This document shows, one piece after another, positions 5,901-64,000 of a stretch of DNA of 64,000 nt. Location: NCBI RefSeq assembly GCF_003144115.1, contig NW_020312007.1, positions 677,481 to 741,480 on the forward strand, given 5' to 3'. How positions within the stretch are numbered: position 1 is the stretch's first letter; every line of letters begins with the position of its first letter. Source of the stretch: Tilletiopsis washingtonensis. Lineage: Eukaryota; Basidiomycota; Exobasidiomycetes; Entylomatales. Under the pieces are notes generated by a model. That model was not told the origin of the DNA and did no database searches. It saw only the letters and a list, made by a program, of their open reading frames with translations. Both the position numbers and the translations under genes were made by a program.

Positions 5901-7388
5901 AGCGGCGTCGAGACGATTGCGTCGGTGAGGACGAACATGTTCTCGGAGCCGACGAGCACGATGACGAACGGCAGGATCTCCCTGCGGCGAGGCAGAGGCA
6001 GTATCAGCTCACTGACAGCAGAGCACACTCGCGCGACACGCACCACGGCACAGCAGTTAGACGAAGCCCGCTGAGCGCGCAGATGCTGACACTCATGATC
6101 GTGCTGATCAGCAGCTCGATCGTGCCCGTGAAGGCAAGGCCCCATGGCGAGTGCACCTTGCGCACTTTGACGAGGCCGAGCGCGATCCATGCCACAAAGG
6201 CCAGGTAGCCGAGGCCCAGCAGCACCTTGCGCAGCTTGGGCACTGCGGCGTCGGGCACGAACTGCATGAAGATGGTCAGCCGCAGGCTTGCGCTGAAGAG
6301 CGAGGCTCCACACTCACACGCAGCACCACCTCCTTCTCAAAGCGAAGCTCGCTCTCTACGATGCGCGTGCCACTAGCGACGTCGTCGAGCAGGCCACGGA
6401 ACGCATCATGCTGGCCTTCATCTGCCCCGCACGCCGGGTCCTGCAGCCAGAAGCTGAGCACCAAGAACTCAGCGCGCGGGCTGCGGCTGAAGAGCGGCCC
6501 GCGCCCGGCCAGCGTCGTTGTGAGCGCCAGCGGCACGCCGCGCGACGAGACATTGTGCTGCGGCTCGAGCAGCGCCGATAATGTCGCATCTGACTGCAGT
6601 GGCAGCGCCGCAGCCTGCCAGTAGTCGAGCGGGCTCAGCGTGAGGCACTGTCCGGTGGGCGTGCGAACGCAGCGAGGCGCTTGTGCTGTCCCTGCCGCAG
6701 CTTCGCCCGCCAGCCTGGCTTCGAGCGCGGCCTGCAGGCGCTGCGCCGAGTTGAGCACGGCCGCCTGCAGCACGCCGCCACGGCCAGCGGTGCCGCGCAT
6801 CACGTCGTCGGTGGTGACGAGGACATGCTCGAGCCTGGCGCACTGCGGCTCGGGCTGCTGCCGGCCGCGCTGGACGACGGTGTCGCGCGGGTCCTTGGCA
6901 GATAGATCCGGCGCATCGTCCCAAACCATGCGCAGGTCGCGCAGCGAATTGAGGTGCGTGCGCCCAGACGAGGCGAACGAGTCGAGCAGCGGCGTCGAGA
7001 GCGTGCGCCAGACGGACGTCGTGTCGCTGCGGCTCAGGCCCGGCCCGCCCTGCGACGCGAAGAGGTAAATGCCCGCGGCGGGATAGAAGAGCGAGGTGAT
7101 GAAGAGACAGCAGAGCAGCAGCGTACGGATCGGATGTCGCGAGACAGAGGCGCCGTGCCGGCGAAAGAGGCGAGCCACGACGGCGGATAGGCGCTCCGAG
7201 GCGGCCGCGATGCGCGAGGCGGGCGCCTTGCTGCTGCCCGTCGCGCGCGCCGAGGGGCGCCGCGGCCGCGGCGGACGGCGCAGTGCGGGCAGAGCGACGG
7301 GCGCTGCGGGTGCGCCGCCGAAGGGATCGAGGACGTTGGCGGCAGGCCCGGGCCGTGGCCGGCTGGGCCCAGCTCGCGCCTGCGACAT
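2972..7388 (-). CDS. Scap homologue: sterol-sensing-domain and WD-repeat escort of SREBP
   Basis: Predicted SREBP cleavage-activating protein, the ER sterol sensor that escorts SREBP for proteolysis when sterol or oxygen is low. Three exons (7388-6318, 6261-6044, 5981-2972) give 1432 aa. A first membrane helix lies at about residues 88-110 after a basic, proline-rich N-terminus, followed by a long lumenal loop. The sterol-sensing domain is at about 370-560. Its junction across intron 2 reads LTAVPWEILPFVIVLVG, then SENMFVLTDAI, which matches the family closely. Two further helices flank a region before a C-terminal half with WD-like repeats (for example DTVVSVAIDSSISVWRV). Length is in the usual range for fungal Scap. 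No SREBP gene is in the window. Intron 1 (56 nt) is the least certain boundary. Confidence 0.88.
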
Positions 7389-22522: not shown

Positions 22523-22663
22523 ATGTATTATATGCGATCAGGCGCGTGCACATGCGACAGGCCATAGCTCATCGAGCCGGCGCGCCGCGCCCGGTGCGGC
22601 TGAGGCCCCTCCCAGCCCGTCCATCGCCGCGCCTCGCCCAGCCACCCTCCGGCACCCGCTGCC

Positions 22664-46064: not shown

Positions 46065-46555
46065 GCTTCAGCTTGTGGTGCTCGTCCCGCCTGCGCCGGA
46101 AGAAAGAGCAAGCCGCCGCGGGCCGCGCGCTCGCGCCGGTGCGGGAGGCGCCTGGGATGCTCGGAGAGTGGAGGACCTGTGCGAGGCCACAGCGCCGCCG
46201 GTGTCGGAGCGAACAGTGCAGTTTGTGTGCTGCGGCGCAGTGGGCTATGCTGAGCTGGCACGAGCAGAATCGGGATAGGCGGCTTGCGGCTGTTGCTGTG
46301 GTGGAGGCATGGATGGCACTCTGCGCAGCCTCGCTGCGCACGAGCCGCCGCGGCGGCTGCGGGATGCGGATGGCGTGCTGCTCCCATGCCGTCTCCCGCC
46401 GCGGCGCCTCTTCGCGGCCGATCCTCCCGGCCGTAAGGACCGTCGCGACCACCATCTCCCTCCATTCCTTCGGTGCGACAGAGCAACGCCCGCCAGCTCG
46501 GCCTCGCCTTGGCGCTGCACCACTGCACTGCGCCCATCTCTTCTCGCTCGCAGAC
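46065..46555. other. Divergent promoter region
   Basis: About 490 bases between the start codons of the unknown gene (minus) and the O-acyltransferase gene (plus). An open frame on plus continues upstream of the chosen start but lacks targeting or conserved features. Confidence 0.55.
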
Positions 46556-48508
46556 ATGCGGCTCGGCCATGCCAACGTCGCTGCAGCCCTGGCGAGCGCT
46601 GCGCCGTCGTCCAGCAAGCTGGTGCTCTCCCGCCAGGTGCCGGCGGCCAGTGGCGCACAGCGCACGCTCTTCACCGGCGCCGCTTCGCCGCAGCGGGCTC
46701 GTCTGCGAGTCGCCGCGCACGTTGCTGCGCGGCGCGCCCTCTCGACACCCTCGTTCCCCTGCGTGGATGCCAACGAGGCGCGCACGGCACGCCTGCTGGC
46801 CCAGGGCCCGTCGCTGCAGCCGGCGTCGGCCTCGCCGACGGCCGTCGACAGCGGCCCGGAGCCGATGTACGGTGCGCCGCGCGGCTACAAGACGTTCGCC
46901 TGCGAGGAGAGCATGTCGCTCGACTACGGCGGCGAGCTGCCGCGCTTCGACATTGCCTACGAGACTTGGGGCACGCTCTCGCCTGCGGCCGACAATGCCA
47001 TTCTGCTGCACACGGGCCTGTCCGCCTCGAGCCACGCCGCCTCGACGCCGAGCCATCCGACGCCCGGCTGGTGGGAGGCCTTCATCGGCCCAGGCAAGCC
47101 CATCGACACGGACCGCTACTTTGTGATCTGCACGAATGTCATCGGTGGCTGCTACGGCAGCACTGGCCCGTCGTCGCCGCACCCGCTGGACCCCGCGGGC
47201 CGCCCGTATGCGTCGCGCTTCCCGATCCTGACGCTCTTCGACATGCTGCGGGCGCAGTTCCGCCTGCTCGATCATCTCGGCATCCAGCGGCTGTATGCCT
47301 CGGTGGGCAGCTCGATGGGCGGCATGCAGAGCGTCGCTGCCTGCCACATGCACCCCGACCGCGTAGCCCGTGTGGTCAGCATCTCTGGCTGTGCACGCTC
47401 GGCGCCGGCCAGCATCGCACTGCGCTATGCTCAGAGAAGTGGTGAGTGGGCGCGGGCAGATGGAAGAGTGCGCGGCAGTCGGCGCCTTCAAAGGCTGCCC
47501 AATGGGTCCGGATTGGCGGATCGGGCCCGCGCTGACTCTCTGAGCCTCAGTGCTCATGGCGGACCCGAACTGGAACAGGGGCTTCTACTACGACGAGGGC
47601 CGGCTACCGCCGCATATGGGCATGAAGCTCGCGCGCCAGATCGCGACGATCACCTACCGCTCGGGGCCCGAGTGGGAGCAGCGCTTTGGGCGCCATCGTC
47701 GGCTGGCCGCGCCGCGCAAGGAGAACAAGGCCAGCGCCGGCCGGGTCTCGGACCGCTCGCCAGAGGACCAGGAGCAGGACCCGGCGCTGTGCCCCGACTT
47801 TCTCATCGAGACGTACCTCGACCACCAGGGCGAGAGCTTCTGCCTCAAGTACGACGCCAACTCGCTCATCTACATCTCCAAGGCGATGGACCTCTTCGAC
47901 ATGTCCGACTTTGCGCTCGCAGATCTGGCGCGACGGCGACGCGCTGCCGCCGTCGCGAGCGCAGCCGACGGCAGCACTGCGGGCAACGCGGACCAGTATG
48001 CGCGGGAGACGAGCTGCCTCGCCGACGAAGAGTCTGGGCAGGGCGACGAGCCCCGCATGCCGCGGCGTCAGCACATCCACACGCTGTCGAGTCCGTCGGC
48101 GCACGCCTACCTGCCTGCGCTGGCGCGCGGCCTGAAGCGGCTCAGCAACACGCCGACGCTCATTCTCGGCGCCCAGGTGAGCCGGTCCGCCAGCGTGGCG
48201 CTGGCTGCACTTCTGACGTCTTGCCACACCCAGACCGACATTCTCTTTCCCGTGGAGCAGCAGCGCGAGCTCGCTGAGTGCCTGCGCATGAATGGCAACG
48301 ACCGCGTGCGCTACTACGAGATCGACGCACCGCACGGCCACGACAGCTTCCTGTGAGAGATCGCTGGAGTTCTGCGGGCCTGAGCCGAGCTGACGCCGAG
48401 CCCAGCATCGACGTGGCCAACGTGGGCGGCGCTCTCAAGGTGCGTCGCCGCGCCAGAGCTTCCGCTGAACCGTGCTGACGTGCCTCTTCCCAGGGCTTCC
48501 TGGACTGA
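46556..48508 (+). CDS. Mitochondrial serine (or homoserine) O-acyltransferase, alpha/beta hydrolase
   Basis: Predicted enzyme of the homoserine acetyltransferase superfamily that activates serine or homoserine for sulfhydrylation in cysteine or methionine synthesis. Five exons (46556-47441, 47551-48176, 48234-48352, 48406-48439, 48494-48508) give 559 aa. An Arg/Ala/Ser-rich presequence of about 65 residues suggests mitochondria. Motifs: [50 protein letters not shown] and the nucleophile elbow GSSMGGMQ (S253). The C-terminal catalytic His lies in APHGHDSFL. The STGPSS variant and the mitochondrial presequence favour the fungal serine-specific group (Aspergillus CysA, fission yeast Cys2) over cytosolic Met2. 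The last two exons (34 and 15 nt) recover [16 protein letters not shown] and follow an apparent early stop. Confidence 0.86.
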
Positions 48509-50158
48509 TGCTGGGGAAAGCAATGCAACGCGATCCGTGAAGAGTTGGCTTGGCGCCTTGACTCGAACGCCCAGCGAAGGGCGTGTACTTGTGCCGGGAT
48601 GCCCGCAGAAGGAAGACGCGACGTTGAGCTTGACAGATGGGAGAACGCGTGCGATGTGTTGCGGTGACACGCCTCAAAGCTGCATTGTGCTCGATCAGGC
48701 CGAGTACAGCGACAGCGCACTTTGTCTGTGGGTACTGCCGTGTGGACTCAGGCGAACCCTGCTGGCTCGCCGCTGGGTCCGCCCTGGTAGCATGCTCTAG
48801 AGGCTGGCCGAGGAGGCGAGTCGTCGCCCTTGCACGCGCGGCTCCTCAGGGACAGCGCCGCGCTGTGCCCGTTCCCACGCGATGGTCCGCCCGGTCGCCT
48901 CGCACACGGCGCTCGTTCTTCATGCGAGAGCGCACCCGAGAGTCATCTGTTCAGCTCAAAATTGAGAGGATGCTTGCATGATGGCCTCCGTCCAGGCACA
49001 GTGGGGCATCGACGGCGTGCGGGTGCCTAGGCCAGGTGGCTGTCAAGGCTAGCACAGGCCACGCGGCGCAGAGGTGCATGCGCGCGCTGCGTGTCTCTCG
49101 CCTGCTCGTCGGGTGATGCCCTCGGCGCCGCATGGCGCCGCGATCAAGCTGCGCCCGAGCACAAAGCGGTGCACAATCGCACAGGCTGAGCTAGGCCATG
49201 TCCCAAGGAGAGACAGAGGGATCACCTTGCGAGAGCGCAAGCCGGCATTGACGGCGGCGACAAGGTTCAGGCCGTGTCGGCGACCGGTCTCGCACGCGCG
49301 CCGTGCCGTCAGCTCCACGTTGCGCCGCGCAACGCGCCACCGAGCGCGCAGCGCGCATGACCCCTGAGCAATACCAGAGCCGCTCACTTGCAGCGACGCA
49401 GCAGCAGCAGCAGCAGCAGCAGCAAGACTTTGCAGCGCGTGTCATCCCTTTGCTCACAGCAGCAGCAGCAACACAGGGTGCAGCTCTCCTCGAGGTTAAG
49501 CCGAGTCCAGCGGCGAAATCAAGAGTCGCCTCCCGAGGGCCTCTGCATCGGGCAGCCTGACCGCTGTGCTGTGCGGCGCTTGCCGACGACACCCACGCCA
49601 CAGGGCAGCGCGCGGAACCTGTCGTGCTCACCCATTGAGCGGATGCCCACGCCACAGTTCAGCTCGAGCTTGTGTGGTGCTGCGGGTGGTCATCGCAGCG
49701 TCAGCATGCAGCTCGCGCGGAGGAATGACCTGCTGGAGGCGCTGTTGTCCGGACAGCGCGCTGCCGGCCCCGGCGCAGATCGCAGATCGCCGCGCCCCGT
49801 CTTGCTGCAGCGGGGCGCATGCGGGTGCCGGCGCCGAGCGCAGTGCGGAATGTGCATGCAGCCGGCGTCGGAGTATATTCGCGTGCATGGGGGCACGGCC
49901 GCAGCAGCATGCAGCGCTCATGCATGCGCCAGGCGGCAGCGCGCCATCTGCGGCGGCAGCCCCAGGAGGCAGCACCCTGCAGCTGTCGTCCTCGCAGCCG
50001 CCGGCCGTGGGAGCCGGAAATGCAGGCGCCGCCTCGCTCGGCCGCTTCGAGCATCTACAGCTGCACCTCGTCTCATCCCCCGACGCCACACCCACCTCGC
50101 AACCACCACCACGCCCCGCCCGCCGCTGCACCGCTGCCCAGCCAAGCCGCAGCCCAGC
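48509..50158. other. 1.65-kb gap marking the edge of the subtelomeric block
   Basis: Separates the housekeeping genes from the telomere-proximal carbohydrate genes. It contains CAG/GCA microsatellites near 49,400 and 49,460 and several GC-driven open frames without family similarity. The last 100 bases before 50,159 are C-rich with few G, as in promoters here. Confidence 0.5.
49398..49424 (+). repeat. (GCA)9 microsatellite
   Basis: Nine uninterrupted GCA units; a second short CAG run of about four to five units lies some 30 bases downstream. Both are in a gap with no recognised gene. Confidence 0.95.
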
Positions 50159-51346
50159 ATGAGCAACACGACGGCGCAGCAGGTGCTGAGTGTCGGCGGC
50201 CTGCCCGTCGGCTTCGTGCCGCAGTTTCATGCGTCGGCCACCCCGATGGCCGACATTCAGCGCGTCATCGACAGCGCAACGCCGGCGTCGCTGAACATGA
50301 CGCTGCGCCCGGCCACGTACGGCTGGTATGCGCAGACGTACCCGCACGAGCACTTTGACGGCGAGCAGCTGCTGCGCGTCAAGGACGACGTCGTCGCCTC
50401 GGGCGCCATCTTCGAGCCGGCCGTGATGCCGCTGCAGGGCTGGACGGGCTACACGGCGGCCAACAACTCGCACGCCCTCTCGATTGCGCGCGTGCTGAAG
50501 CAGTTCACCGACGAGGGCGTCGAGGTGCGCCTGCGGTGAGCTGCAGGACGTGCTGCGCTCGGCGGGCCATGCTGACACGCCTGCCAGCTTTGCCCATGAG
50601 GTCAACTACTACACGTCGGAAGCGGGCGGCATGATCTACGGCAGCGGGTCGTCGGCAATGCAGGACTTCAAGACGGCCTTCGGACAGGTGGCACAGGCAT
50701 GCGCAGACATTGCGCCCGACGTACGTCTTGTCTACTCGCCTAATTACGATCCCGACGATGCCGTGTACGACGCCTGGGCGCCCTCACCGGAGCAGTACCA
50801 GTTCGTGGCCGCGGACTACTACCCAGACGTGGCGAACCAAGCCACCGCAGCAGATGTGAGCAGCCTCGGGCGGCCTGCGGAATGCACGCTCACGTCACGC
50901 TGCGCAGTACATCAAGAAGTTGCAGGCCTTCCACGACCGCTACACGCAGAACTCGACGACGAAGATGATCATCGCCGAGACGAGCCTGAAGCTCAACGTT
51001 ACGTCGCAGACGCGCATCGACTGGCTGCGCCAGCTGGCCAGCTCGTCGGTGCGGGAAGCCATGCCGAATCTCGTCAGTCTCTCGTGGTACAACGTGGACG
51101 TCGAGTCGTGAGTGCAGCGATGCCGAGACTGCCCGCCGCTTGCTCACATCGCCTCTCAGGGAGTACGACTACCGGATCGTCGATCCACCGAACGACGACT
51201 ACAACGAGCCGTTCAAGCGCTTCATCGAGCGTCTGACAGCAAGGCAGTCGAACGGTGCCTGCCGGTCAGCCGTCCCGAGCCTGCGCTACGCCGGCAGCGC
51301 GGTCCGGCGGCAAGTGCTCAAGTATACCCGGCGCTATGCGTCCTGA
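50159..51346 (+). CDS. GH26-like glycoside hydrolase (beta-mannanase clan), no visible signal peptide
   Basis: Four exons (50159-50535, 50588-50855, 50908-51107, 51160-51346) give 343 aa, about one TIM-barrel domain. The pattern fits family GH26: VEVRLRFAHEVNYY with a candidate acid/base E130, a middle RLVYSPNYDPDD, then YQFVAADYYPDV, and TTKMIIAETSLKLN with a candidate nucleophile E239. The 109-residue spacing is close to that of the well-studied bacterial GH26 mannanase. GH26 enzymes mostly cut beta-1,4-mannan, less often other beta-glycans. Unlike typical secreted mannanases, the N-terminus (MSNTTAQQVLSVGGLPVGFV) shows no signal peptide, and none is visible in frame upstream. It lies 3' to 3' with the ManC-like gene, 183 bases apart. 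Confidence 0.7.
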
Positions 51347-51529
51347 GCAAGCCGCAGTCGCGCCGTCGGACACGCACAGCACAGCAGCAATAGACAGATT
51401 GTGAAAGAATGTGGCATTGATGCAGAGCAGGGAGCAAGAGAGACCCGGGATATGGATGCGGAGGCGCGGCAGACAGTAGTGACACTGAAGAGAGGGCAGC
51501 ACGGGTATAGGGAGAGAGGCTCGAGGCGG

Positions 51530-53095
51530 TCAAGCAACCGCGGGCGAGGCGGCTTTGCACGCGGCGACGAGCTTCTTGATGTCCTGCGCACGGCTCGCCA
51601 GCGTGACGAGCAGCGCGTGCGGCGTGTCGACGATGACGACGTCGTCGATGCCCAGGCAGGCAATCATCTTGCCGCCGGCGGGCACGATGAGGCCAGAGGC
51701 CTCCTGCGTGAAGACCTGGGTCGCGTCGCCGAGCACCTGCACGTGCTTCTCGGCGCACGGCGCCTCTTCGCGGGCAGCCAGCTCGGCGAGCGCCTCGAAG
51801 CTGCCGACGTCGGTCCACTTGAGCGGCGCCGGAATGACGAGCATGCGCCCGCGGGCCGCAGCGGGCTCGGCGATCGCGTGGTCGATGCTGATCTTGGGCA
51901 GCGTCGGCCAGACGGCGGCGAGCACCTCGTCGCGCTTCTCCTTGACGTCCCAGGCCGATGCGATGAGCGTGAGCTTGTCGAAGAGCTCCTTGTTCTCCGC
52001 CTCGAGCAGCTCGAGGAGCACCGAGGCGCGCGTGACAAACATGCCCGCGTTCCAATAGTACTCGCCGGAGGCCACGAAGGCGGCCGCAGCAGCCTCGGCC
52101 GGCTTCTCCTTGAAGCGCTCAACGCAGTACGCCGGCGCCGTCTCGGCGTCGAACGCAATGGCGGCGGGCTCGGCACCCTTGGGCCACTGTCGCAGGCCTC
52201 CGCGCTGAATGTAGCCAAAGGCTGTCGATGCCTCGGTGGGCTTGATGCCGATGGTGACGATGTCGCGGCTGGCGCGGGCCGCCGCCACAGCGCTGGCGAC
52301 GGTGACGGCAAAGGAGTCGTCCGTGACCGTCTCGATGACGTGGTCGGCCGCGAAGCTTGCGAGCACCGCCTCGGGGTCGCGCCGGTGGAGAATCGCTGCG
52401 GCAAGGCCGATTGCCGCCATGCTCTCCTTGGGGCTCGGCTCGTGGAGCAGGTTCTCCTCGCGCAGCTGGTCGAGCTGCGAGCGCACACCATCGAGGTGGC
52501 CTGCGCCGGTGACGACGAGGACGCGCTCCTCGCCACAGAGAGGTGCGAGCCGTGCGAAGGTCGTCTGCAGGAGGCTTGAGCCCTTGCCCTCGACGTCGAG
52601 GAGGAACTTGGGCCACACGTCGCGGCTCAGCGGCCACAGCCGCGTGCCGGAGCCGCCGGCGGGGATGACGCTGTAGACGTCGATCGGCCCGGGCTGCGGT
52701 CGTGCGGTTCTTGGGCTGGGCGACTCGGCGATCTGCAGCGAGGTCTCGGCGCCGGTGAAAGTGCTGAGGCGAGGCAGCGGCGTCCGGACCATCCGCGGCG
52801 ACGGCAGCGGCGAGAAGTAGCCCGGCGGGCTGAACGGCGGGACCAGCGAGCTGCTCATGGCGCGGCCCATCGTGGCGCGCTCCAGCGCCTGCACGGAGGT
52901 CTGTAGAGTGAGGACCTACGATGGATTTGAGCAACTGTGCGCATGTAGCTCAAGGGAGGGAAGACTCACCTCTTGCTGCACGCTCAGCATCAGCGTCATG
53001 AGCGCCTCGAGCGTCGGCGCTGGCTGGCTCGGCTCCGCGTCCGTGACCATATTGAGGAGCATGCCCTTGGGGCCACGAATCGGCGCAACGAGCAT
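51530..53095 (-). CDS. ManC-type mannose-1-phosphate guanylyltransferase
   Basis: Predicted to make GDP-mannose from GTP and mannose-1-phosphate. Two exons (53095-52970, 52900-51530) give 498 aa. A 115-residue N-terminal extension, unlike bacterial enzymes, precedes the nucleotidyltransferase core, which starts with YSVIPAGGSGTRLWPLSRDV and WPKFLL (about 118-144). Later motifs are EPSPKESMAAIGLAAAI, FAADHVIE, TAFGYIQRG, FKEKPAEAAAA, YYWNAGMFVTRASVLLELLE and APLKWTDVGSFEAL, all of the bacterial ManC/RfbM type. The usual eukaryotic enzyme (Psa1/GMPPB) begins with a different GGYGTRLRPLT motif. The cupin isomerase domain found in long bacterial ManC/AlgA is absent, so it should be monofunctional. 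It is the likely sugar-nucleotide supplier of the neighbouring glycosyltransferase. Confidence 0.85.
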
Positions 53096-53810
53096 GGCTG
53101 AGAGTGTGTAGAGGTGGTGGGAGGAGTGCAGAGTGTGAGGAACAGCGAGACCGGTTCTTCGGGCCAGCCTTAGCGTGCTCTTGACTGAGCCGGGTCGCGG
53201 TGCGATTCATCAGGCGCACGCGGCGGAGAACGTGGGCGTGCGGAGCATGCGCGCGTGCACGGCGGAGGGTGCAGCGGGAGCGCGGGGACGGCCAGTGCAG
53301 CGGGACGCATCGCAGCGGCCGCATTCGGAGGGGTGCCTGGCGGGACGTGCAGGTGCCTGGCGCCGGATGACTCAACGCACCAGCCTGCGGGGCCCGTCCA
53401 TACGGCGTCCTGCGTGCTGCAGCGACAATGGACGGATGCGACCGAAGCCACCGGCCCGGACGTTGCTCCGCCCTCCCGCGGAGGCACGCACGCCGCAACA
53501 TCGCCCGCATCTGCTGTCCTGCACGTCCAGCGGGCACTCCGGCCGCCGCTTCGATCGGCCTCGCTGCGGCCCAACCACGGCAGTCAGTGCCGAAGCAGCA
53601 GAGTACGGCAGCCGAGGCTCGTCCCGGAACCTTGCCGAGCGGCCGAGCAGGAAGCGGAGCCCCCGGGATTCTCAGGCGCGAAACAGGTCAGAGCTCGGAG
53701 GGTCGCGCAGGCTGGTGACTGTGGTCTATTCTCTATGTGCCGCTTCGGGCGATAGTGGTGCTGGGTATGCAGGTCTAGGGAGTGTGATACAGAACGAGCC
53801 TCCGCCGAGG
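53096..53810. other. Intergenic region, promoter of the ManC-like gene
   Basis: About 700 bases between two minus-strand genes. It should hold the ManC-like promoter and the 3' untranslated region of the acyltransferase paralogue. No gene recognised. Confidence 0.55.
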
Positions 53811-56567
53811 CTACTTTGGGCTGCCAGGGCCGTCGTTGCCGGGCCCCAGCGGCGAAGGCGGCTGGACCGACGGCAGGGCCACGCTGACGCGGCGCAGGGG
53901 CGAAGGCGGAGGGTGTAGGGGTAATGCTAGGCTGTCTCTTCGCATAGGCGATGGTGGCGGAAAGAGTGTGGGTGCGAGGCTGTCGCGTCGCAGGGGAGAG
54001 GGCGGTGCGAGCAGCGACGGTGTGAAGCTGTCCTTGCGGTACGGGCTCGCCGGCTCGCACAGCGTCGGCGCGAGGCTGTCCCTGCGGTACGGCGATTCTG
54101 GCGTGTACAGCGTCGGTGCGAAGCAATCCTTGCGGGGCGAGTCGGTGCCATAGAGTGTCGGCGCGAAGCTGTCCCGGCGAGGCGAGTCCTTGCCGTAGAG
54201 GCTGGGTGTGAAGCTGTCCTTGCGCGGAGAGTCGGTGCCGTAGAGCGTCGGCGCGAAGCTGTCTCTGCGAGGAGAGTCTTTGCCGTAGAGCGATGGGGCG
54301 AAGCTGTCCTTCCGAGGCGAGTACTTGTAGAGCGTCGGCGCCATACTGTCTCGGCGCGGCGAGTCTTTGCCGTAGAGCGACGGTGCGAAGCTGTCCTTGC
54401 GGGGCGAGTAGTCGTAGAGCGTCGGCGCCATGCTGTCCTTTCGCGGAGAGTCGGAGCTGTACAGCGTTGACGTGAAGCTGTTCTTGCGCAGGGGGGAGTC
54501 CGGCAGGCTGTCCTTGACTAGGACCATCGGAGTGGGCGGAGCGACTAGAGTAACGGCTGGGCTGGCCTTCTGCGGCGCCTCCGGAGGGGGCGGAGGAGGC
54601 GACTCCGGTGTGGCGCTGAGGTTCGGAAGGAAGAAGCGAACACACAGGCGCGCCATCACCTCCGACGGCAGCTCTGCGAGCATGGCGATGAGCGGCGCGG
54701 CTGCAAGCGACAGGCCAAGCGTCAGGCCCCAGAGCCGCAGAAGCACCGAGCCGGCGCTATGGTCCACCGCATCGAACGAGGGCTGGTAGAGCCGAGGAAC
54801 GAGGTAGAATAGCACCAGAGGATGCGAGATGGCGACGGCTGCGGCACCAAAGCGTCCGAGGGCTGCCAGGGGCCGGAAAGAGAGGACCGCGCGCACGGGC
54901 CACGCCACCTCGGCGAGGAGCACCATGAGTGCTGCGCTGATGACGTCGGAGAAGCGAAGAAGCTGATGGCCCGAGGTGAGAGGGTCGCCTTCCGTGCCAT
55001 GCAGCACCTGCGCGTGCGCAAGTGCGTTCGAGAGGCCCTCACGCAGCGGCGCGACAAAGAGGAACACGGCGAGCAGGGCCGCGACGGCGCACTGCAGACC
55101 TGTGCGGAGAGCTCTGTTGCTCGTGCCCCCTGCGCTGAGGCGGGTTAGGGTGCCGCACACGCTCAGGTCGGCGATGATGAGGCCGAGCATGAACGGCGTC
55201 AGGAACGAGTACGTGCACCAGTTGACGACGGCGAGGAAGACAAAGAGGGCCTGCCGCGAGCTGTTCTTGAACAGTCCGGAGAACGTTGCGACGCCGAGGA
55301 TGTACAGGCTGCCCTGGAGGAGCCACGGGGTGGTGTACAGCGTCGATGAGGTGCTGCGCAGATGCACGGACATGTCACTGGCGACGAAGAGCGACGTTGC
55401 GACCCCTGCCCACGCTCGGTCGTTGGACAGTGTCCACTGCGGCAGCTCGGCAACGCCTCCGAAGAGCTGGCGCAGCGGCTCCGACGTGGCGAAGGGGCCG
55501 CCTGCGCGTCCGACGGCGTACTGCAGCCCGCTGATGAGCAGCACGGGCAGGAAGCGAAACGGACGCCGGAGAAGGGCTTGTCCGAACTGGCGCATTGACG
55601 CCGGGATGGTGGGTGCCGCAGCCTTGCCGGACGCCAGCGGCTCGAGCCAGGGCAGCGGCAGGATGCGACCGACGAGCACCATGAAGACGGAGAGGGCAAA
55701 GTCGGAGCGCACGGGGTAGAGAAGCGTCGAGGCGCCGGCCCACTCGCGCGTGGCGCTGGTGAAGACGGTCGCAGTGAGAAGTGTGATCGCGGCGATGAGC
55801 TTCAGCGAGTCGAGGTAGCGCAGCCGCCCGCCGTCGGCCGTCCAGTCGAGCGCGCCGGGCCATTTGCAGAAAGCGCGGAGGCGTGCGCTGAGCTTCGGAC
55901 CACGCGGCGGGTCGGACGTGTCGCCGCGTGTGAACGCCGGCAGCAGGTCGACGGCGTCCTCCATGCCCGTGGTGGAAGGAGCGAGTGTGAGAGAGGAGGG
56001 TCGTCGAAGCTTGTACTTGGCCGGCCTCAGCGGCGCAGGCGCCACGAGCGTCATGGACGAGGCCCTTCTCCGGCCCAGCCTCGCGGGAACGTACACGCTA
56101 GGGCCGGCCTCCGTCTTCTCCTCATCGACGGACTTGCGAAGCTTGTCATCGTCGAGGGACTTGCCGAGCTTGTCGTCGTCCTCGCCGAGCTCGTCGTCAT
56201 CGAGGGACTTGACTTTGGCATTCTCGAAGGACTTGAGCTTGTCACCGTACGGCTCGTCGGGGAAGAGCGTCGCGCTTGAAGAGGCACGTCGCCGCCCGAG
56301 GCTCGGGGGCGCCTTGAGGTATGAGTCGGAGTCTGCCGCGCTCGGAAGCGGGGGCCGGCTGTTGCCAGCCGGGGATGGCGCGGGCCGGTCGACGAAGGTG
56401 ACGGTCGAGGCCCGGCGGCGCCCCATGCGAGGATGGGCGCCCGAGGCCGACTCGAACGACGCCTCGCTCGAAGGCGTCGGCCGCGTGGGCGAGAACTGCG
56501 AGCGGTCTGGCGCCGGCTGCTCCCGGAAGGTCACGGTCGACCCGCTTCGCGCTCTTTGGTGGGCCAT
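53811..56567 (-). CDS. Acyltransferase-3-like membrane protein with tandem phosphosite-like repeats
   Basis: Single exon, 918 aa. The N-terminal 240 residues are cytosolic-looking, with three GRRRAS motifs and an acidic stretch repeating KSLDDDKL. The middle, about 245-650, has around ten hydrophobic helices laid out like acyltransferase family 3 and aligns with the N-terminal half of the fusion protein next door: RYLDSLKLIAAITLLTATVF, PVRSDFALSVFMVLVGRIL, FRFLPVLLISGLQYAVGRAG, LYTTPWLLQGSLYILGV. The histidine expected after the first motif is missing, so activity is doubtful. The last 230 residues are about 14 copies of a 14-16-residue repeat such as DSPRKDSFAPSLYGK. The protein may be a regulatory or transport partner of the fusion enzyme. 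The two genes are divergent. Confidence 0.75.
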   Translation of the reverse strand: MAHQRARSGSTVTFREQPAPDRSQFSPTRPTPSSEASFESASGAHPRMGRRRASTVTFVDRPAPSPAGNSRPPLPSAADSDSYLKAPPSLGRRRASSSATLFPDEPYGDKLKSFENAKVKSLDDDELGEDDDKLGKSLDDDKLRKSVDEEKTEAGPSVYVPARLGRRRASSMTLVAPAPLRPAKYKLRRPSSLTLAPSTTGMEDAVDLLPAFTRGDTSDPPRGPKLSARLRAFCKWPGALDWTADGGRLRYLDSLKLIAAITLLTATVFTSATREWAGASTLLYPVRSDFALSVFMVLVGRILPLPWLEPLASGKAAAPTIPASMRQFGQALLRRPFRFLPVLLISGLQYAVGRAGGPFATSEPLRQLFGGVAELPQWTLSNDRAWAGVATSLFVASDMSVHLRSTSSTLYTTPWLLQGSLYILGVATFSGLFKNSSRQALFVFLAVVNWCTYSFLTPFMLGLIIADLSVCGTLTRLSAGGTSNRALRTGLQCAVAALLAVFLFVAPLREGLSNALAHAQVLHGTEGDPLTSGHQLLRFSDVISAALMVLLAEVAWPVRAVLSFRPLAALGRFGAAAVAISHPLVLFYLVPRLYQPSFDAVDHSAGSVLLRLWGLTLGLSLAAAPLIAMLAELPSEVMARLCVRFFLPNLSATPESPPPPPPEAPQKASPAVTLVAPPTPMVLVKDSLPDSPLRKNSFTSTLYSSDSPRKDSMAPTLYDYSPRKDSFAPSLYGKDSPRRDSMAPTLYKYSPRKDSFAPSLYGKDSPRRDSFAPTLYGTDSPRKDSFTPSLYGKDSPRRDSFAPTLYGTDSPRKDCFAPTLYTPESPYRRDSLAPTLCEPASPYRKDSFTPSLLAPPSPLRRDSLAPTLFPPPSPMRRDSLALPLHPPPSPLRRVSVALPSVQPPSPLGPGNDGPGSPK
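53841..54505 (-). repeat. Coding tandem repeat, consensus SP-x-RRDSFAPTLYG
   Basis: About 14 consecutive units of 42-48 bases encode variants of DSPRKDSFAPSLYGK. Units near the middle are almost identical at the DNA level and later ones drift (PSPLRRDSLAPTLFPP). Nearly every unit keeps Ser-Pro and an Arg-Arg/Lys-Asp-Ser core. Confidence 0.9.
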
Positions 56568-59177
56568 GTGGACGGACAGATGGGGGTGGTGGGGCTGTGA
56601 GCACGGGTGAGCGGGGCGCCTGGGTGTATAAGAGGCCGGCTGTCATCCTTCGTGCCGAGGCGAGCGGTGTGGCGCCGCGGGCCTGTGTCAGTGCGTATCT
56701 TTGCGTCGCGGACGATTTGTCGAGCATGCGCTGATCGGCGCGAGCAGCGCGAGTGGCGCTCTGCCCTGAGCCTGCTGCTGCTCGAAGCGGCACGGCCGGA
56801 AGCGTAGGATCATCAAGACGGATGCGCAGCGTATGCCCGCAGCCCGCAGGTCGAGGACCCGGCTGGCGGTCCAGTCCGCGCCGAGCACGCCTCTGGCCGG
56901 CCGTGCTGCCGGCGCGGCAGCAGCATGCGGCCCGCTCGATGGGAGAGCCGTGGGAGCCAGCTGCGCGACACGGCAGCCTGCGGCGCGCGAGGGGCGCACG
57001 CTCGGCGGCCGACGTCGTCGTCGTCGACGAGTCGCTGCGCTGCGTGCGCCGTCGGCGGAGGTGCCGCACCGCGGCGGCGCAGAGCAAGCCGGGACCTCGC
57101 GGCCAGCGCCCGGAACAGCATGCGGCAGCAGCATTGCGCATGCAGCGCTTGCCTCAGCAACGCTGGGCTGCCCACCCGACGATGGCCCAGCTGCGACGCT
57201 GCCGGGCGTGCATGCACGCTGATGGCGCGGCACTGCTCTGGGGGCTGACGGGCGGCGCTGCGCGTCTGGCGTGCGTTCCTGCAGGCGTGCGCGCTGCGCG
57301 GCGACGGGCGCCACATTCATGCGTGCATGCGCCGGTGGAATGGCAGTGTGCGGCACGCTGCGCTGCTGCCCTGCGGAACGGCGGAGCGGCGGAGCAGCGG
57401 ACCCTGGGCGGCAGCGTGCGTCGGGCCTATGGGTCGAAGGGGCAAGAGGCCGCGCGGGCAACCTGCGGCTGTCCGACGGACGGGGCACGGCAGCAGCACG
57501 GCGCAAGCGCCCCTTCCGCCGTGTGCGGTTTCCACCGGGGCTTTACGCATTCCAGATGCAGCGCGCGAGGGCAACTCCTGCGAGCGCTCAGCCCAGGCAC
57601 CGCAGCAGCGCACAGCCGGCAGGCATGGTGCTGGCTCGGGGCTGCCTGCGCAACGCGGCGGCGGCGGCACCGCAGGCAGCATCTGCTCATGCGCAGGCGG
57701 CCGGCGCAGGCCAGCGCAGAGCGGCAGGTGCACCACCCGCCCCACAGGCACCGGGCACACGCAGGGCTGCAGTGCCGAGTGGTGAGTACCAGCGCAGGAG
57801 CAATGCATGCGCGCAGGACATCTCGCCGGACCGGACGCTGCGTCGCCTCCTGCGCGGCGCCGTGCGCGCACCACCGGATGGACGCGCGCGCTGCCCTGGG
57901 AGCGGCCGCCAGCATCCAGCATCGCAGGGGTGGGGCTCGCTGCGCCAGATGCAGCATCCGGCCTGCAGGACCGCCAGAGCCAAGTGCGATGATGTCGCGC
58001 AGTGTGAACCGCCCTCAATTCCGCAGCGGCGGCGGCGACCCTTCGTTGCGCGAGAAGGGCGGACGCTGCGATGCGCGCGGGCGGCGGCGCGCTCCGAGCG
58101 CGACCCGATGCCGGGCCTGCCGAGCATTGCGTTGCAGGGTGCAGCGGAGCGACATGTCAGCCGGGCGTCCCGGTGCCGAATCAATGCGGGCGGAGGTGCA
58201 CGTCAGCGGCGGGATGCAGCGCCGGCGCCCGCCGATGCGGGGCGTGCAGCGTGGCTGGCGAGGCGCGCCGGGAATGTCGCGCGCGCAGCAGCGCAGGGGG
58301 CGAGCGGGCGCGCCAGCACGACCTCTGCGCAGGGCCGCCGCAAGTATCGGGGGCAAGCAACGGCAGCCGAGTATCAAGTGCCCGCCCAGCCGGGTCAGGG
58401 GCGGGTATGTCCAGGCGCCGGATGCGTGCGGCGTCCACGGCCGACCGGCGCGACACGTCCAGCCTCGCCGCTGCTCCTCGCCACGCACAAGCCACACCTC
58501 GCCTGGCGCGCCCGGCCCTGGCGGCCGACGAGCAAGTGTGCGTCCGCTCCCAAGACCACGGTGCCGTGCTCCGCCCTGCCGTCTAGATTCCACCTCAGCG
58601 GCGGAGCTCGGCGGCGCTCATCATGGTGCATCTGCCGGGCGCCGCGACTTGCCCTCCTGGTCCGGATGTGCTGGATGGACATGCTGCGGCTGTGCGGCGA
58701 ATCCACAGCGCAGCCGGCTCCAGAGACCCTGAAGGGCGGTTCTTTGTCCGGGAGGCGGCGGCGCGCGCGGCGAGAGCTTCGTGTCTCGCGGCGCCCCTTG
58801 CCGCTGCCGGCGGCTCCCCGTGGCGCATGCCCTGCAGCGGCTGCTCGCTCTCTACATTCTTCCGCGGAGGAGAGCAACACCTAGCCAGCCAGTGCGCGAC
58901 ATGTTCTGTTCGCGCGCACGTTCCTCGGGCGCGGAACCTTGCTGTGGATGGCTGGGGCCAGCGACAAGCTCGGGCGCTGCCAGCGAGAGGGCAGCAGGTC
59001 TCGCCTGAGGCGCGCCGCGCGCTGCCGTGGCTTCGCTCGCCCTTACCGCGGCGGCGACCAGCGTTCGGCAGCGCGATGCCGGGTCGGCTGGGAGCTCTGA
59101 CAGCAGGCCCGGCCGGCCTTATCGACGGCGCGAGACGCCGCGCCCTTTTCCTCTCCACCACATCCATCCCCGCCACC
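56568..59177. other. 2.6-kb divergent region between the two acyltransferase genes
   Basis: Must carry the promoters of both paralogues. It is very GC-rich and has long open frames on both strands (for example 56753-58732 plus, 659 codons; 57271-58884 plus, 537 codons), but the translations are rich in Arg, Ala, Cys, His and Trp without domain structure and overlap each other, so I read them as chance. Words such as GCATGC, CAGCAGC and ATGCGGCCCGCT recur; the last also occurs near 63,215. Confidence 0.5.
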
Positions 59178-62100
59178 ATGAGCGGCATCGGCGAAGCAAG
59201 CAGCGCGCCGCGCGCCCGCGCCCGCGCAATGTCGGTCATGACACTCGTCGCGCCCGCCAACATGCCGAGCGTCAAGGAGGACGAGAGCCAGTCGGAGACG
59301 TCGAGCGGCAAGGACGTCGACTACATTGCCGACCCTGAGAAGACCGACGCCGACCCGGAGGCTGGCGAGACGTACGCCGACCTCGAGCTCGAGGCCGACG
59401 ACGGCGCGTGCTGCGCGCACTGCCGCTTCGCGCGCGAGCCACCAGCACTCGGCAAGGCCGAGTCGCTCTTTGAGAAGGGCAACGTGTTTGAGAAGGACTT
59501 TCAGCAAGTGGAGCAGAGCAACGCGCTCTTCTTCGACCGCGGCAACGTCTTTGCCGATGATTACGAGAAGCGCCTCTCGGCGGGCAGCTTGGGCAAGGGC
59601 AAGGGGCCCGAGCTCTACTCCGAGAAGGTCTCGCCGTTTGACGAGGAGATCTCGCCGCTGGACAAGTTGGCCATGGACGAGGACTTGAAGAAGGAGCTAG
59701 TTCTCGAGCCCGTGCCGGAGCCGCCCGCGCCAGTCGCAGCCCCGGCCAAGGCGCCCGAGAAGAAGGCGCGCAAGCCGTTCCGCGAGGGCGACACGGGCTA
59801 CCTCGACGGGCTGCGCGGCCTCGTCATGATTATGGTGTTCACGCAGCACTTTGCCGACAATACATGGCTGGTGAGTAGTGTCAGCGACACCACGGACACA
59901 GCGGCTGACACGCGCGCAGGGAACGCACCCCAAGGTCATGGAGACGGGCACGGCCGTCGACATTCTGCGCTCCAAGGTGAGTGGGAAGCGCGCCACCCTT
60001 GGCCTCTGCTGACCTTCGCCACAGATCAGTCTGGTCCTCTTCTTTGCGCTCTCCGGCCGGCTCAACGTCACGTCGTACATGCGCCGGCTGGGCACGGACT
60101 CGCCGATCCAGTGGTTCACGCTGCCGGAGGCCATGTTCCGGCGCACGCTGCGCCTCTCGGTGCTGTCGTGCGTGATGCTGCTCCTGCAGAAGGCGCAGTG
60201 CGCCGGCGGCGCCTTCTACCCGACGATGGACGCGCAGGCCGTGCTGCAGACCGACGGCAACCTGTGGTACCCGTCGTGGTGCCCGACGACGCGCGACCCC
60301 AAGACGCTGCGCATCACCGACGCCTGGACGACGCCCGGCGACATCCTCACGGCCCTGCTGCGCCTCATGACGAACACGGACAACGCCGAGCAGCTGCGCG
60401 AGACGTCGATGCTGTGGTCGATGCAGCCGCAGATCTGGGGCATGCTCTACGTGCTCATGCTCATGCCCGTCGTCGCGCACATGACGCAGTCGCGCCGCTT
60501 TGCGTTCTATGCGCTGCTCGTCACGTTCCTGGGCTACACGCAGAACCTCAACCTGCCCTTTGTCATTGGCGTCATCATGGCGGACCTCAAGTGCACGGGC
60601 ATCCTCAAGCGCTGGCAGTCGACGTCGCGCGTGACGTACCTCGCCACCGAGTGCGCCCTCGCCGGCGTGTTTCTCGTGTTTCTGTGCTACAACACCATCG
60701 AGGGCACGATTGTGCGCGCATGGGCGCCGACGACGTACAAGCACGGCGTCGTCGGCGTCGACACCAAGGCCGGCGACTTTGGCGGCCAGCCGATCATCAT
60801 CTTCCGCGCCACGCTGCTCTTCCTCTGGCTCGAGATGTCGAACACGTTCCAGTGGCTCGTCGGCAACTTTATGTTCAAGATCCTCGGGCGGCACGCGTTC
60901 GGCATCTACGTCACGCAGATGAGCGCCATCTACCTCGTCGTGCCGCCGGTCGCGATGCACTACGCCGCGCGCGACCAGCTCTACTGGAAGGGCATCGTCA
61001 ATGCGTATCTCGCGACGTTTGCGGCGAACTTTGCCTTTGGCTGGGTGCTCAACAAGCTCGTCGACGCGCCCGCGCTGACATTCTCCGGCTGGCTCTCGCG
61101 CACGATGCGCAAGGAGGGCTTCCTCGCCGTGTTCACGCAGGGCTGGCGCAACACGGTCGCCGCCGTGCGCGGTGCGCCAGCCCGCGCCGGGGCGATCCCC
61201 GGCAAGCTGCGCGTCAAGTGGGCGGCGACGAAGAAGCTCGGCTCGCAGATCCGCCACTGGCGCACGCCCGTGCCGATCATCCCGCCGCCCGAGCACCCGC
61301 TCGCCTACGGCCTCGACCCCGCCGAGATGCACTCGACGCTCTTCGACGCCGACATCAGCACGGACCCGCAGGCGGTGCGCACGCGGCGCCTGCTCATTGC
61401 CTGGTCGTACATCTGGCCGTTCAACGCGATTGTGATCCCCGGCATGGCGCTCTCGTGGGGCCTGCTCAACCCGTGGCACAACTACATCACCACCGACTTT
61501 GCCACGTTCTCGACGCTCTGGCGCCTGCTCTGGCTGCTCGCGCTGCCGTACTGCCTCATCACCTGGATCGGCTACATGACGCCCGACATTACGCGCACGC
61601 CCGAGGCGATGAAGAAGCGCCCCGTGTGCCGCGAGCAGCTGCGCCACTTCTACATTGTGTCCGTCACGCGCGGCTCCAACGAGGACGCCACCCGCCGTGC
61701 CCACACGAAGCTCAAGCTCCTGGAAAAGTACCACCCGGCCGTGCGTGTCATTGTGCTCACCGACGAGCCGTATGCGTACCCCGACCTGGACAACATGATG
61801 ACGCCGAAGAACTACAAGTCGCCGCTCGGCCTCGCCAAGCACAAGGCCAAGGCGCTCGACTACTTCCGCACCACGATGAAGCTCTCGCCGTACGACTTTG
61901 TGCTGCACATGGACGAGGAGTCGACGATGGACGCCGAGTCGCTGCGCGGCTGCTTCGACTTTGTGCGCTACACGCCGCACCACATCGGCCAGGGCATCAT
62001 CATCTACAATGGGCACCGGTACTTTAAGGACTGGCGAGCGTGGTGCTTCGGCATCGCGGACACGATTCGCGTCGGTGGTGAGTGCAGACGTGTGAAGTGC

Positions 62101-62763
62101 GGCAGAGCAGGCGCTGACCCCCCTCCAGACGATCTGGCGCGCTTCTCGCTGCAGGGCAACATCGTGCAGCGGCCCATCTTTGGCATCCACGGCTCGTTTC
62201 TGCTGCTCAACGGCGAGGCCGAGAACCAGGTCGGCTGGGACTTTGCCAGTCTCGCCGAGGACTTTGAGTTCTCGCAGGCGGCCTGGCAGAAGGGCTTCAC
62301 GCTCGGGCGCATCCACGGCATCGTGCGCGAGCAGTCGCCCGAGGGCTTCCTCGACTTTATGAAGCAGCGCCGCCGCTGGTACATTGGCATCTGCCAGATC
62401 AAGGGCTGCTACCACCTGCCGCAGATCGCCATCAAGCTGTGGACCGCCGGCATCTTCTGCCTCGTCGCGACGGTCCTCAACGTCATCTTCTCGCTGCTCC
62501 TCGAGTGGAGCGGCCCGAGCCCGTACTGGATCTACGTCCTCGCGTGCTTCTGCTTCGGCGCCTTCCAGTGGCTCTACATCGGCGGGCTGCTCTTCCAGGA
62601 GCTCGACTACGGCTACGAGTGGTGGCAGTGGTGGCAGATTCCCGCGCACGCCATTGCGCTCATCTTCATCCAGCCGTTCATGGCCGTCGTCGAGGGCTGC
62701 GCCGTCATCTGGGCGATGTCGACGGACCCGGCCGAGATCGGCTTCCAGGTCGTGAAGAAGTAG
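59178..62763 (+). CDS. Fusion of acyltransferase-3 membrane domain with egghead-like GT2 mannosyltransferase
   Basis: Four exons (59178-59870, 59920-59976, 60025-62077, 62129-62763) give 1145 aa. Residues 1-205 are an acidic, lysine-rich cytosolic tail. An acyltransferase-3 domain follows, starting YLDGLRGLVMIMVFTQHF (Y208, candidate catalytic H224) and LVLFFALSGRLN, with about ten helices. Two or three more helices (about 690-790) lead to a GT2 domain: HFYIVSVTRGSNEDATRR, VIVLTDEP, LHMDEESTMDAESLRG (metal-binding D-x-E near 879), IGQGIIIYNG, WDFASLAEDFEFSQAA and the acceptor-site QRRRW (about 1014), then further helices. The GT2 half resembles animal egghead beta-1,4-mannosyltransferase, so GDP-mannose is the likely donor. 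The start has a strong Kozak-like context (CGCCACCATGAG). It is the last gene before the telomere. Confidence 0.85.
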
Positions 62764-63905
62764 GAGCGGGTTGCGCCACTGCAGCGCAGCGCAGCGCCCA
62801 GCACTCCACACTCGACGACGGCAGCGCGCAGCGACGACGGCAGCGCGCAGCAAAGCAACGAGCGCGGCAGAGCGTGCTCGAGATGCGCCTCGCTCGGCGG
62901 CTGCGTGCGCGGCTCGACTCGTCGGCGACGACGCGTCCAGTCGAGCAGCCCACGCCGAGCAGCCCGACACCATCCGCCGACCCACGCCGCCGCACTCGCC
63001 AAGGATCCCCTTTCTCTCACCCCCGCACGCAGCGATGCGCTGCCACACTCTCTAGACGTACACTCCTTCCCCAATAGACCGCACCTGCCGGGCCCCGACG
63101 CGGCTCACCTGCTGCTCGCGGCGCCTCTTGTCACCACGAAGAAATATACCCCGTCCGAACGTCATCTGCGGCAGGGATGAGCGGCCCAATGCGACGCGTG
63201 CGGCACGCTGCAGATGCGGCCCGCTGCGGAGCATCGCCAGCTGCGGGGCGTGCGCGCTGGGCGTAGCGTGCTGTCCCGTCCAGCGAGCTGCTGAGCGGGC
63301 GGCTGCTGAGCGGGCGGCGGGCTGCCGAGCTTGCGGCGCGACGTGGCGAGCGCCAACAGCGATGGCGAGCTGCTGAGCGTCGAGCGCGCTGCAGAGCGTC
63401 GTGGCGAGCCGCTGAGCGTCGTGCGAGCTGATGAGCTTCGTGGCGGGCTGCAGAGCCGGCGGACGCGCGCGAGTGCGCTCTGGCGGGCGTGCTCGAGCGA
63501 TGCGGCGCCGGCAAGACGTGCGGCAGAGCCTCGGCGGCGTGTTGCCTCTAGACGTACGGCGGGTGCCTGTGCGGACGGGGCGCTGCAACGTGCCTGAGTG
63601 CGACACGGCGCAACGAGCGTACTCCAAGCATGCGACCTGCCCAGCAAAAGCGTGGCAACGGGAATGTGTGGCATTGCGGGATGTGCGAGGCGTGGTGGTG
63701 GAGGGAGGCATGCAGCGGCGAGGCGGAAAGGCGCGAACGTGCACGACTCGACTGCGGTCACGTGCAAAGCAGTCACCTGACCAGCAGCAGTGAGTCAGAG
63801 CACAGGCAGTGCAGCACATCCTGCTGCTGCTTTGCGCCTACCCTCCAAGAGCTGTTCCAGGACCATTGACAGCACAGCCAACCAGCAAGCCTTGCGTTGC
63901 TCCTC
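62764..63905. other. Subtelomeric noncoding region
   Basis: The 1.14 kb between the last stop codon and the telomere repeats. It has no recognised gene, helicase or transposon. The first 250 bases are rich in GCAGCG and CGACG words; 63,270-63,450 holds imperfect short repeats. Confidence 0.6.
63270..63450 (+). repeat. Imperfect subtelomeric repeat with GCTGAGCG core
   Basis: Words of the form GCGAGCTGCTGAGCG recur five to six times with drift (GAGCTGCTGAGCGGGCGG, GGCTGCTGAGCGGGCGG, GAGCTGCTGAGCGTCGAG, GAGCCGCTGAGCGTCGTG, GAGCTGATGAGCTTCGTG). Spacing is irregular, so this is a degenerate array and not a clean tandem repeat. Confidence 0.6.
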
Positions 63906-64000
63906 TTAGGGTTAGGGTTAGGGTTAGGGTTAGGGTTAGGGTTAGGGTTAGGGTTAGGGTTAGGGTTAGGGTTAGGGTTAGGGTTAGGGTTAGGGTTAGG
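63906..64000 (+). repeat. Telomere repeat (TTAGGG)n, chromosome end
   Basis: Fifteen perfect TTAGGG units plus TTAGG, with no variants. The G-rich strand runs 5' to 3' toward the right edge, which is the orientation of a true right-hand chromosome end. The window stops inside the array, so its real length is unknown. Confidence 0.98.

Follow-up and report, generated by a model that had tools for sequence, protein, structure and literature searches.

Does the gene set at one chromosome end of the fungus Tilletiopsis washingtonensis build an acylated, mannose-containing surface glycan, and which enzymes would do so? The window analyzed here (64,000 nucleotides; contig NW_020312007.1, positions 677,481 to 741,480) carries four neighboring genes near its right end. 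They encode a GH26-like hydrolase, a ManC-type GDP-mannose pyrophosphorylase, a paralogue of the acyltransferase-3 (AT3) family, and a fusion of an AT3 domain with a GT2 glycosyltransferase. An earlier note, made from the sequence alone, had placed these genes beside a telomere and in a single pathway for an acylated mannoside. The gene models, the codon-position GC, and the terminal repeat array bear out the location: these are the last genes recognized before a TTAGGG telomere, the set ends 1.1 kb from it, and the chromosome terminates at the right edge of the window. The pathway fared less evenly, because adjacency without a visible intervening gene speaks for it, whereas the activity of the second AT3 protein is doubtful, and mannose as the donor is deduced indirectly. 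We tentatively read the locus as a fungal exopolysaccharide-type (surface-glycan) gene set, which may well resemble the galactosaminogalactan (GAG) cluster but be based on mannose.

A ManC-type enzyme of actinobacterial type

The ManC protein matches the Pfam families NTP_transferase (4.2e-35) and ManC_GMP_beta-helix (1.8e-10). Its closest solved relative is PDB code 2x5s (3.2e-37), which we take to be the Thermotoga enzyme. The alignment to this PDB match displays GGSGTRLWPLSR..PK, F.EKP, and WN.GMF, presumably the motifs of ManC-type GDP-mannose pyrophosphorylases. With the NTP_transferase fold, the ManC β-helix, and the signature motifs all present, the assignment as a ManC-type GDP-mannose pyrophosphorylase, already made in the earlier note, is secure as a sequence-based prediction, and the intact motifs suggest that the protein is active in making GDP-mannose. 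An N-terminal extension of ∼65 residues precedes the conserved part. The protein does not correspond to the bifunctional ManC/phosphomannose isomerase (TIGR01479), as its score of 230.2 bits falls short of the cut-off (372.95), the match spans profile positions 2–347 of 467, and the isomerase domain is missing. Nor is it of the ordinary eukaryotic type, which we assume to be Psa1/GMPP.

What the earlier note missed is the bacterial kinship of this enzyme. When plasmid records were searched by tblastn, an Arthrobacter megaplasmid came out on top (49.9% identity over 80% of the query), followed by Deinococcus (36–39% identity), among the best 10 of 449 records. When genomes of bacteria and archaea were scanned, 229 pattern matches provided 53 loci; because the patterns were derived from the query, this sampling favors look-alikes. 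In the corresponding 54-row tree, which holds no fungal rows, the 33 Actinomycetota rows and the window protein are together split from the other rows by a branch with a support of 100/100. The branch of the window protein is long (1.0), and the comparison of a position nested within the Actinomycetota with one sister to them gave a p-AU (approximately unbiased test) of 0.481. Judging from this tree, ManC is of actinobacterial type and probably of actinobacterial ancestry. By itself, this result makes ManC a strong candidate for an inter-kingdom transfer at a central sugar-nucleotide step. Contamination is unlikely, given the host-like codon-position GC, the long N-terminal extension, and the intron-bearing neighbors on a telomere-carrying stretch.

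Import of a whole operon was considered and rejected. As far as sampled (up to 8 kb on each side, with 13 of the 53 loci comprising less than 16 kb), the open reading frames (ORFs) around these bacterial loci included no match to the GT2, AT3, or GH26 proteins, either with ORFs of at least 150 amino acids at E ≤ 1e-3 or with ORFs of at least 120 amino acids at E ≤ 1e-2.

ManC could also be the main or only GDP-mannose source of the cell, replacing the eukaryotic enzyme and serving all mannosylation, with its adjacency to GT2 being incidental. An intact enzyme with host-like codon-position GC would suit such a role, but a position so near the telomere is presumably unusual for a sole essential gene, and ManC has a carbohydrate-type gene on both sides. 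We therefore consider a housekeeping function improbable.

A GT2 synthase fused to an acyltransferase domain

Pfam recognizes both halves of the fusion, as the earlier note had proposed. Glyco_trans_2_3 (3.2e-25) covers residues 875–1099 in the numbering that still includes the third intron. In the protein of 1145 amino acids, HMDEES lies at residue 878, ED at residue 978, and QRRRW at residue 1014. This GT2 core (TD, HxDEES...ED...QRRRW) is invariant in six aligned proteins, namely the window protein, two actinobacterial proteins, and three proteins from viral contigs, at 31–33% identity. The HxDEES/GxHGS/QRRRW layout is presumably Egghead-like, a label that the earlier note also used and that goes by motifs.

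Both structure models, of the whole fusion and of the GT2 domain, were built on unspliced frames and thus carry 17 residues encoded by the third intron. The model of the whole fusion (mean predicted local distance difference test, pLDDT, of 43.0) was set aside, and the GT2 model was used with caution (mean pLDDT of 56.9, with 74–91 in the core blocks and poorly modeled transmembrane helices). In a Foldseek search with the GT2 model, Xenopus hyaluronan synthase 1 ranks first (3.1e-8), with Chlorella virus hyaluronan synthase next. Further down the list are cellulose synthases (ranks 6 and 10) and an archaeal mannosyltransferase (rank 13). A GT2 sequence profile matched three BcsA-type sequences in the PDB (best 2.5e-7) and nothing else at E ≤ 0.01. 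The D../ED/Q..RW core, the transmembrane helices that follow it, and the synthase-like fold of the model are those of a processive membrane GT2 synthase, and the enzyme is predicted to be processive. Fold and profile together support the membrane synthase plan but say nothing firm on the sugar.

At E ≤ 0.001, 13 of 296 actinobacterial genomes match the 916-residue reading of GT2, and four of 396 genomes pass 1e-20 with the six-row profile, two of which are the genomes of profile members themselves. Relatives were found in four IMG/VR contigs; the IMG/VR scan with the window GT2 protein alone retrieved none, and two of the viral proteins, used as queries in turn, retrieved only themselves. An actinobacterial origin of GT2 was considered and set aside; no donor can be named. 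The IMG/VR proteins are of the HxDEES/QRRRW type and ∼30% identical to the fungal GT2 (contigs L072, 4758–6071; L073, 4755–6077; L074, 4767–6065; L084, 3001–3723). They are stand-alone proteins in the three contigs whose frames were listed.

The acyltransferase half (residues 208–588) matches Acyl_transf_3 (2.7e-13; 50.1 bits versus a cut-off of 31). It keeps R-X10-H (RGLVMIMVFTQH at residue 213), and its RRTLR fits RXXR. A study on OafA reports that alanine at R14, H25, R69, or R72 lowers the signal to 0.33% or less, each residue being essential, and that R/K-X10-H is common to all bacterial AT3 acetyltransferases in a set of 30 (PMC7448272). With Acyl_transf_3 above its cut-off and R/K-X10-H in helix 1, the fusion has the features of an AT3 acyltransferase. 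Fusions of AT3 as such have precedents: SGNH and alanine-racemase fusions are mentioned in a review on AT3 proteins of bacteria (PMC9558356), and AT3 fusions to other domains occur in eukaryotes according to PMC9833829, so that the AT3–GT2 fusion may already stand among the Pfam architectures.

The AT3 paralogue is probably a pseudo-enzyme

Pfam recognizes no family in the second AT3 protein at E values of up to 1, but the protein aligns with the AT3 part of the fusion at 25% identity (BLASTP E = 2e-10 in a single comparison). Its kinship to the fusion, as claimed in the earlier note, is thereby confirmed; its role as an acyltransferase is not. Where the fusion has YLDGLRGLVMIMVFTQH, the paralogue has YLDSLKLIAAITLLTATVF, in which lysine takes the place of arginine, as the motif allows, and histidine is missing from the stretch. 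The paralogue thus has the lysine of the R/K-X10-H motif of helix 1 without its histidine, a comparison that draws on a two-sequence alignment, which weakens the inactive reading. RXXR is kept (RRPFR). Without the catalytic histidine, the term “second acyltransferase” probably overstates the function, and the paralogue is probably a pseudo-acyltransferase or regulatory pseudo-enzyme.

The paralogue further contains 17 R[RK]x[ST] sites, compared with a mean of 1.5 and a maximum of 8 in 1000 shuffles. These basophilic-kinase-like sites comprise four N-terminal ones of the GRRRASSMTL type and thirteen in the repeated tail (53811–54490 and 55990–56420, minus strand). The protein could be a non-catalytic, kinase-regulated partner. 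By eye, a RARAMSVMTLVAP stretch at the N terminus of the fusion resembles these sites. Caution in reading the paralogue as inactive comes from fungal GWT1 of the same superfamily, which, according to PMC12423673, does not have the histidine of HGSNAT and is still an enzyme.

The hydrolase is related to GH26 through intermediates

Taken alone, the hydrolase sequence retrieves neither a Pfam family at E ≤ 1 nor a glycosidase from the PDB at E ≤ 5. Searches by tblastn revealed weak matches to plasmid proteins of Paenarthrobacter and Arthrobacter (best 3e-3; 11 records, E up to 10). The Paenarthrobacter plasmid relative matches PF02156 (GH26) at 1.7e-9, and a profile built from the hydrolase and three relatives retrieves, at E ≤ 0.01, 18 sequences from the PDB. 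Apart from one “YdhT,” they go by the names of endoglucanase H (some as fusion constructs), mannanase, or GH26. Since bacterial proteins make up three of the four rows of the profile, the GH26 argument is transitive. Glu-130 (RFAHE.N) and Glu-239 (I.ET), which we take to be the acid/base and the nucleophile of GH26, are invariant in the four-row alignment, and the GSW that follows HEMN in the bacterial proteins is replaced in the window protein. Family profile and both catalytic glutamates are reached via the relatives only. The hydrolase is, as far as these alignments go, GH26-related through intermediates, and GH26 alone does not imply mannanase activity.

None of nine actinobacterial genomes searched contains a match to the hydrolase, and one of 296 in a second set does (3e-4). 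Relatives are located on plasmids of Arthrobacter and Paenarthrobacter typed as conjugative (L054, 4560–5807; L076, 1066–2433; L077, 1177–2433). They are annotated as glycosyl hydrolase or hypothetical protein; the Pfam scan covered the L054 protein (GH26).

Proposed pathway and alternatives

From the observed domains, motifs, gene order, and ManC kinship, we infer the donor, polymer, acceptor, regulation, and joint working of the genes as follows. ManC, with its probable actinobacterial ancestry, would provide GDP-mannose in the cytosol. The GT2 half of the fusion would convert GDP-mannose into a mannose-containing chain and pass it through the membrane like hyaluronan and cellulose synthases, as suggested by fold and motifs. 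The AT3 half, which has the domain and the catalytic motif, would carry an acyl group across the membrane onto the emerging sugar. The AT3 paralogue, with its missing histidine and a tail rich in kinase-type sites, might regulate or scaffold the synthase, and the GH26-like protein, probably acting in the cytosol, might cut or edit mannosyl or mixed-linkage products.

In its fullest form, this would be an undescribed O-acylated mannan or mannoside system, in which the synthase and the transmembrane acyltransferase are one protein, a dead AT3 sister with a phospho-repeat tail exerts control, and an enzyme of actinobacterial ancestry supplies the sugar nucleotide. We regard this complete version as rather unlikely. 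Among the papers listed in a search of open-licence PMC literature, none concerned such a cluster by title; this absence is weak evidence of novelty.

Several observations weigh against the mannose-based exopolysaccharide reading. PF13632 (Glyco_trans_2_3) is present in 12 of 14 control genomes and, being widespread, is not diagnostic. At E ≤ 0.001, the Foldseek search returned 195 matches, among which enzymes that do not polymerise rank high (human B4GALNT1 at rank 4), and the query TM-scores are low (0.26–0.45 for the best 50 of the 195 matches). Mannose as the GT2 donor is deduced from the adjacent ManC and from presumably Egghead-like motifs. The AT3 paralogue probably drops out as a second active enzyme, and no donor operon was seen around the 53 bacterial ManC loci. 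The four genes lie on both strands with gaps of 0.2–2.6 kb, which leaves co-regulation unproved.

The hydrolase adds two further points of this kind, on location and on substrate. A signal peptide could not be found in the protein, and coding periodicity starts at the ATG at 50159. A secreted hydrolase was considered and rejected, as no GT[AG]AG donor lies within 49000–50170 and hence no upstream signal-peptide exon was found, other donor types not being covered. Trimming outside the cell is therefore doubtful, and the hydrolase is probably intracellular. Concerning the substrate, the top PDB match of the hydrolase profile is endoglucanase H (7e-9), with mannanases following from 1e-5. The GH26 part of the earlier claim of a β-mannanase-clan enzyme holds through the relatives, whereas mannanase activity does not follow from it.

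We take “Endoglucanase H” to be the lichenase CtLic26A. GT2 might instead use a UDP-sugar and form another glycan, for example β-glucan, with a lichenase-like GH26 protein beside it and ManC unrelated. Both the best match of the hydrolase profile and the top fold matches of GT2, which are UDP-sugar synthases, would agree with this. However, the fold matches reflect which GT2 enzymes have been solved, an archaeal mannosyltransferase was matched as well, β-mannanases also match the GH26 profile, and the enzyme for GDP-mannose is adjacent; we give a UDP-sugar route little weight.

In animals, Egghead adds one mannose to a glucosylceramide-type lipid. GT2 could likewise transfer a single mannose to glucosylceramide or a similar lipid, and AT3 would then acylate the mannolipid, with no polymer being made. 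The HxDEES/GxHGS/QRRRW layout, presumably Egghead-like, fits such a glycolipid route. According to PMC12423673, AT3 proteins are also proposed to act in fungal natural-product clusters. The top fold matches and the sole profile matches of GT2 are polymer synthases, although non-polymerising enzymes rank high too, and a GH26-type endo-hydrolase is hard to fit in a path to a single-mannose glycolipid, making this route unlikely in our view.

Gene models and surroundings

The interval 50159–62763 opens with the start codon (ATG) of the hydrolase gene and closes with the stop codon of the fusion gene. All six predicted introns are 48–52 nucleotides long, with GTGAG donors and AG acceptors. The third intron of the fusion (62078–62128; 51 nucleotides) reads open and was located via homology, since it interrupts the conserved R.GDD motif of the relatives; splicing it out restores RVGDDLARF. 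Features of the window are compiled in Table 1.

Table 1. Features of the window (positions of the 64,000-nucleotide stretch)
Feature	Position	Strand	Remarks
Sterol-sensing/SREBP-cleavage-activating-type protein	2972–6190		Pfam
Kex2-like protease	22528–24456		Pfam
α/β-Hydrolase	46157–48356		Pfam
GH26-like glycoside hydrolase gene	50159–51346	+	Exons 50159–50535, 50588–50855, 50908–51107, 51160–51346; 343 amino acids; spliced model stop-free
ManC-type mannose-1-phosphate guanylyltransferase (GDP-mannose pyrophosphorylase), predicted	51530–∼52870	-	Single exon; frame open to 52915
AT3 paralogue	53811–∼56567	-	Single exon; frame open to 56642
AT3 paralogue tail repeats, SPR[RK]DSFAP[TS]LY-type	54012–54488	-	Tandem repeats (Tandem Repeats Finder, TRF)
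Intergenic stretch separating the AT3 paralogue from the divergently oriented fusion	56643–59177	.	No coding periodicity
AT3–GT2 fusion	59178–62763	+	Exons 59178–59870, 59920–59976, 60025–62077, 62129–62763; 1145 amino acids
Telomere	63906–64000	+	15.8 TTAGGG copies, 100% match (TRF)

The GC content at codon position 3 is 0.87, 0.90, 0.82, and 0.93 in the four genes, and 0.45, 0.51, 0.56, and 0.44 at position 2. Six of seven other reading frames checked in the window have a position-3 GC of 0.72–0.88 and the seventh 0.70. By the same measure, there is no sign of another coding gene in the gap frames between and around the four genes: frames of at least 100 codons at 48357–50158, 52871–53810, and 62764–63905 show no coding periodicity. 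The 2.5-kb gap upstream of the fusion is G+C-rich and contains many long open frames (up to 665 codons), yet all 14 frames above 150 codons have similar GC at positions 1–3 (0.68–0.80). Long open frames are therefore poor evidence of genes here.

Scans of the whole window for tRNAs and Rfam families gave no matches. The α/β-hydrolase (Table 1) reads like what we assume to be a homoserine O-acetyltransferase, and a fungal transcription factor domain is also among the Pfam matches of the window.

Comparison with known systems

Bacterial alginate and acetylated-cellulose operons combine a GDP-mannose enzyme (alginate), a GT2 synthase, an O-acetyltransferase of the MBOAT type, and a chain-cutting enzyme. 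The window groups the same kinds of enzymes, similar to the bacterial plan for synthase-dependent exopolysaccharides, but has eukaryotic gene structure, AT3 instead of MBOAT, a fusion, and no secretion partners that could be seen. Egghead/BRE-3 is a β-1,4-mannosyltransferase of GT2 with HxDEE(S/T), GxHGS, ED, and QRRRW; the window GT2 presumably has like motifs and differs by its fusion to AT3.

In Ustilago, a mannosylerythritol-lipid cluster contains the mannosyltransferase Emt1, which we take to be a non-GT2 enzyme. A description of that cluster lists emt1, mac1, mac2, and mat1, with separate acyl- and acetyltransferases (PMC12375547). Like the window, it joins a GDP-mannose mannosyltransferase and acylating enzymes in a fungus; neither ManC nor GH26 features in the accessible part of its description, and the different layout asserted by the earlier note is upheld to that extent. 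The conserved fungal GT2 protein MoGT2 is described as having 483 amino acids with a DxD motif and four predicted transmembrane domains, and its named orthologues are those of Z. tritici, F. graminearum, N. crassa, and C. neoformans (PMC6731526). Compared by description, both are fungal membrane GT2 proteins with QxxRW, whereas the window protein has DEE and the AT3 fusion.

The GAG cluster of Aspergillus consists of five co-regulated genes (uge3, gtb3, agd3, ega3, and sph3), which its authors liken to bacterial exopolysaccharide operons (PMC4817252), providing a precedent for operon-like exopolysaccharide clusters in fungi. Common to both fungal loci are an enzyme for nucleotide sugars, a glycosyltransferase of the membrane, a hydrolase, and a protein working on acyl groups. 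They differ in that GAG involves UDP-Gal/GalNAc and a deacetylase, whereas the window would involve GDP-mannose and an added AT3 fused to the synthase; the likeness is drawn from gene content. If our reading holds, the locus would be a mannose-based counterpart to GAG, from a fungus that uses one polypeptide both to build and to acylate the chain and draws its precursor enzyme from bacterial DNA, and surface-glycan variation at chromosome ends would become directly testable through single-gene deletions.

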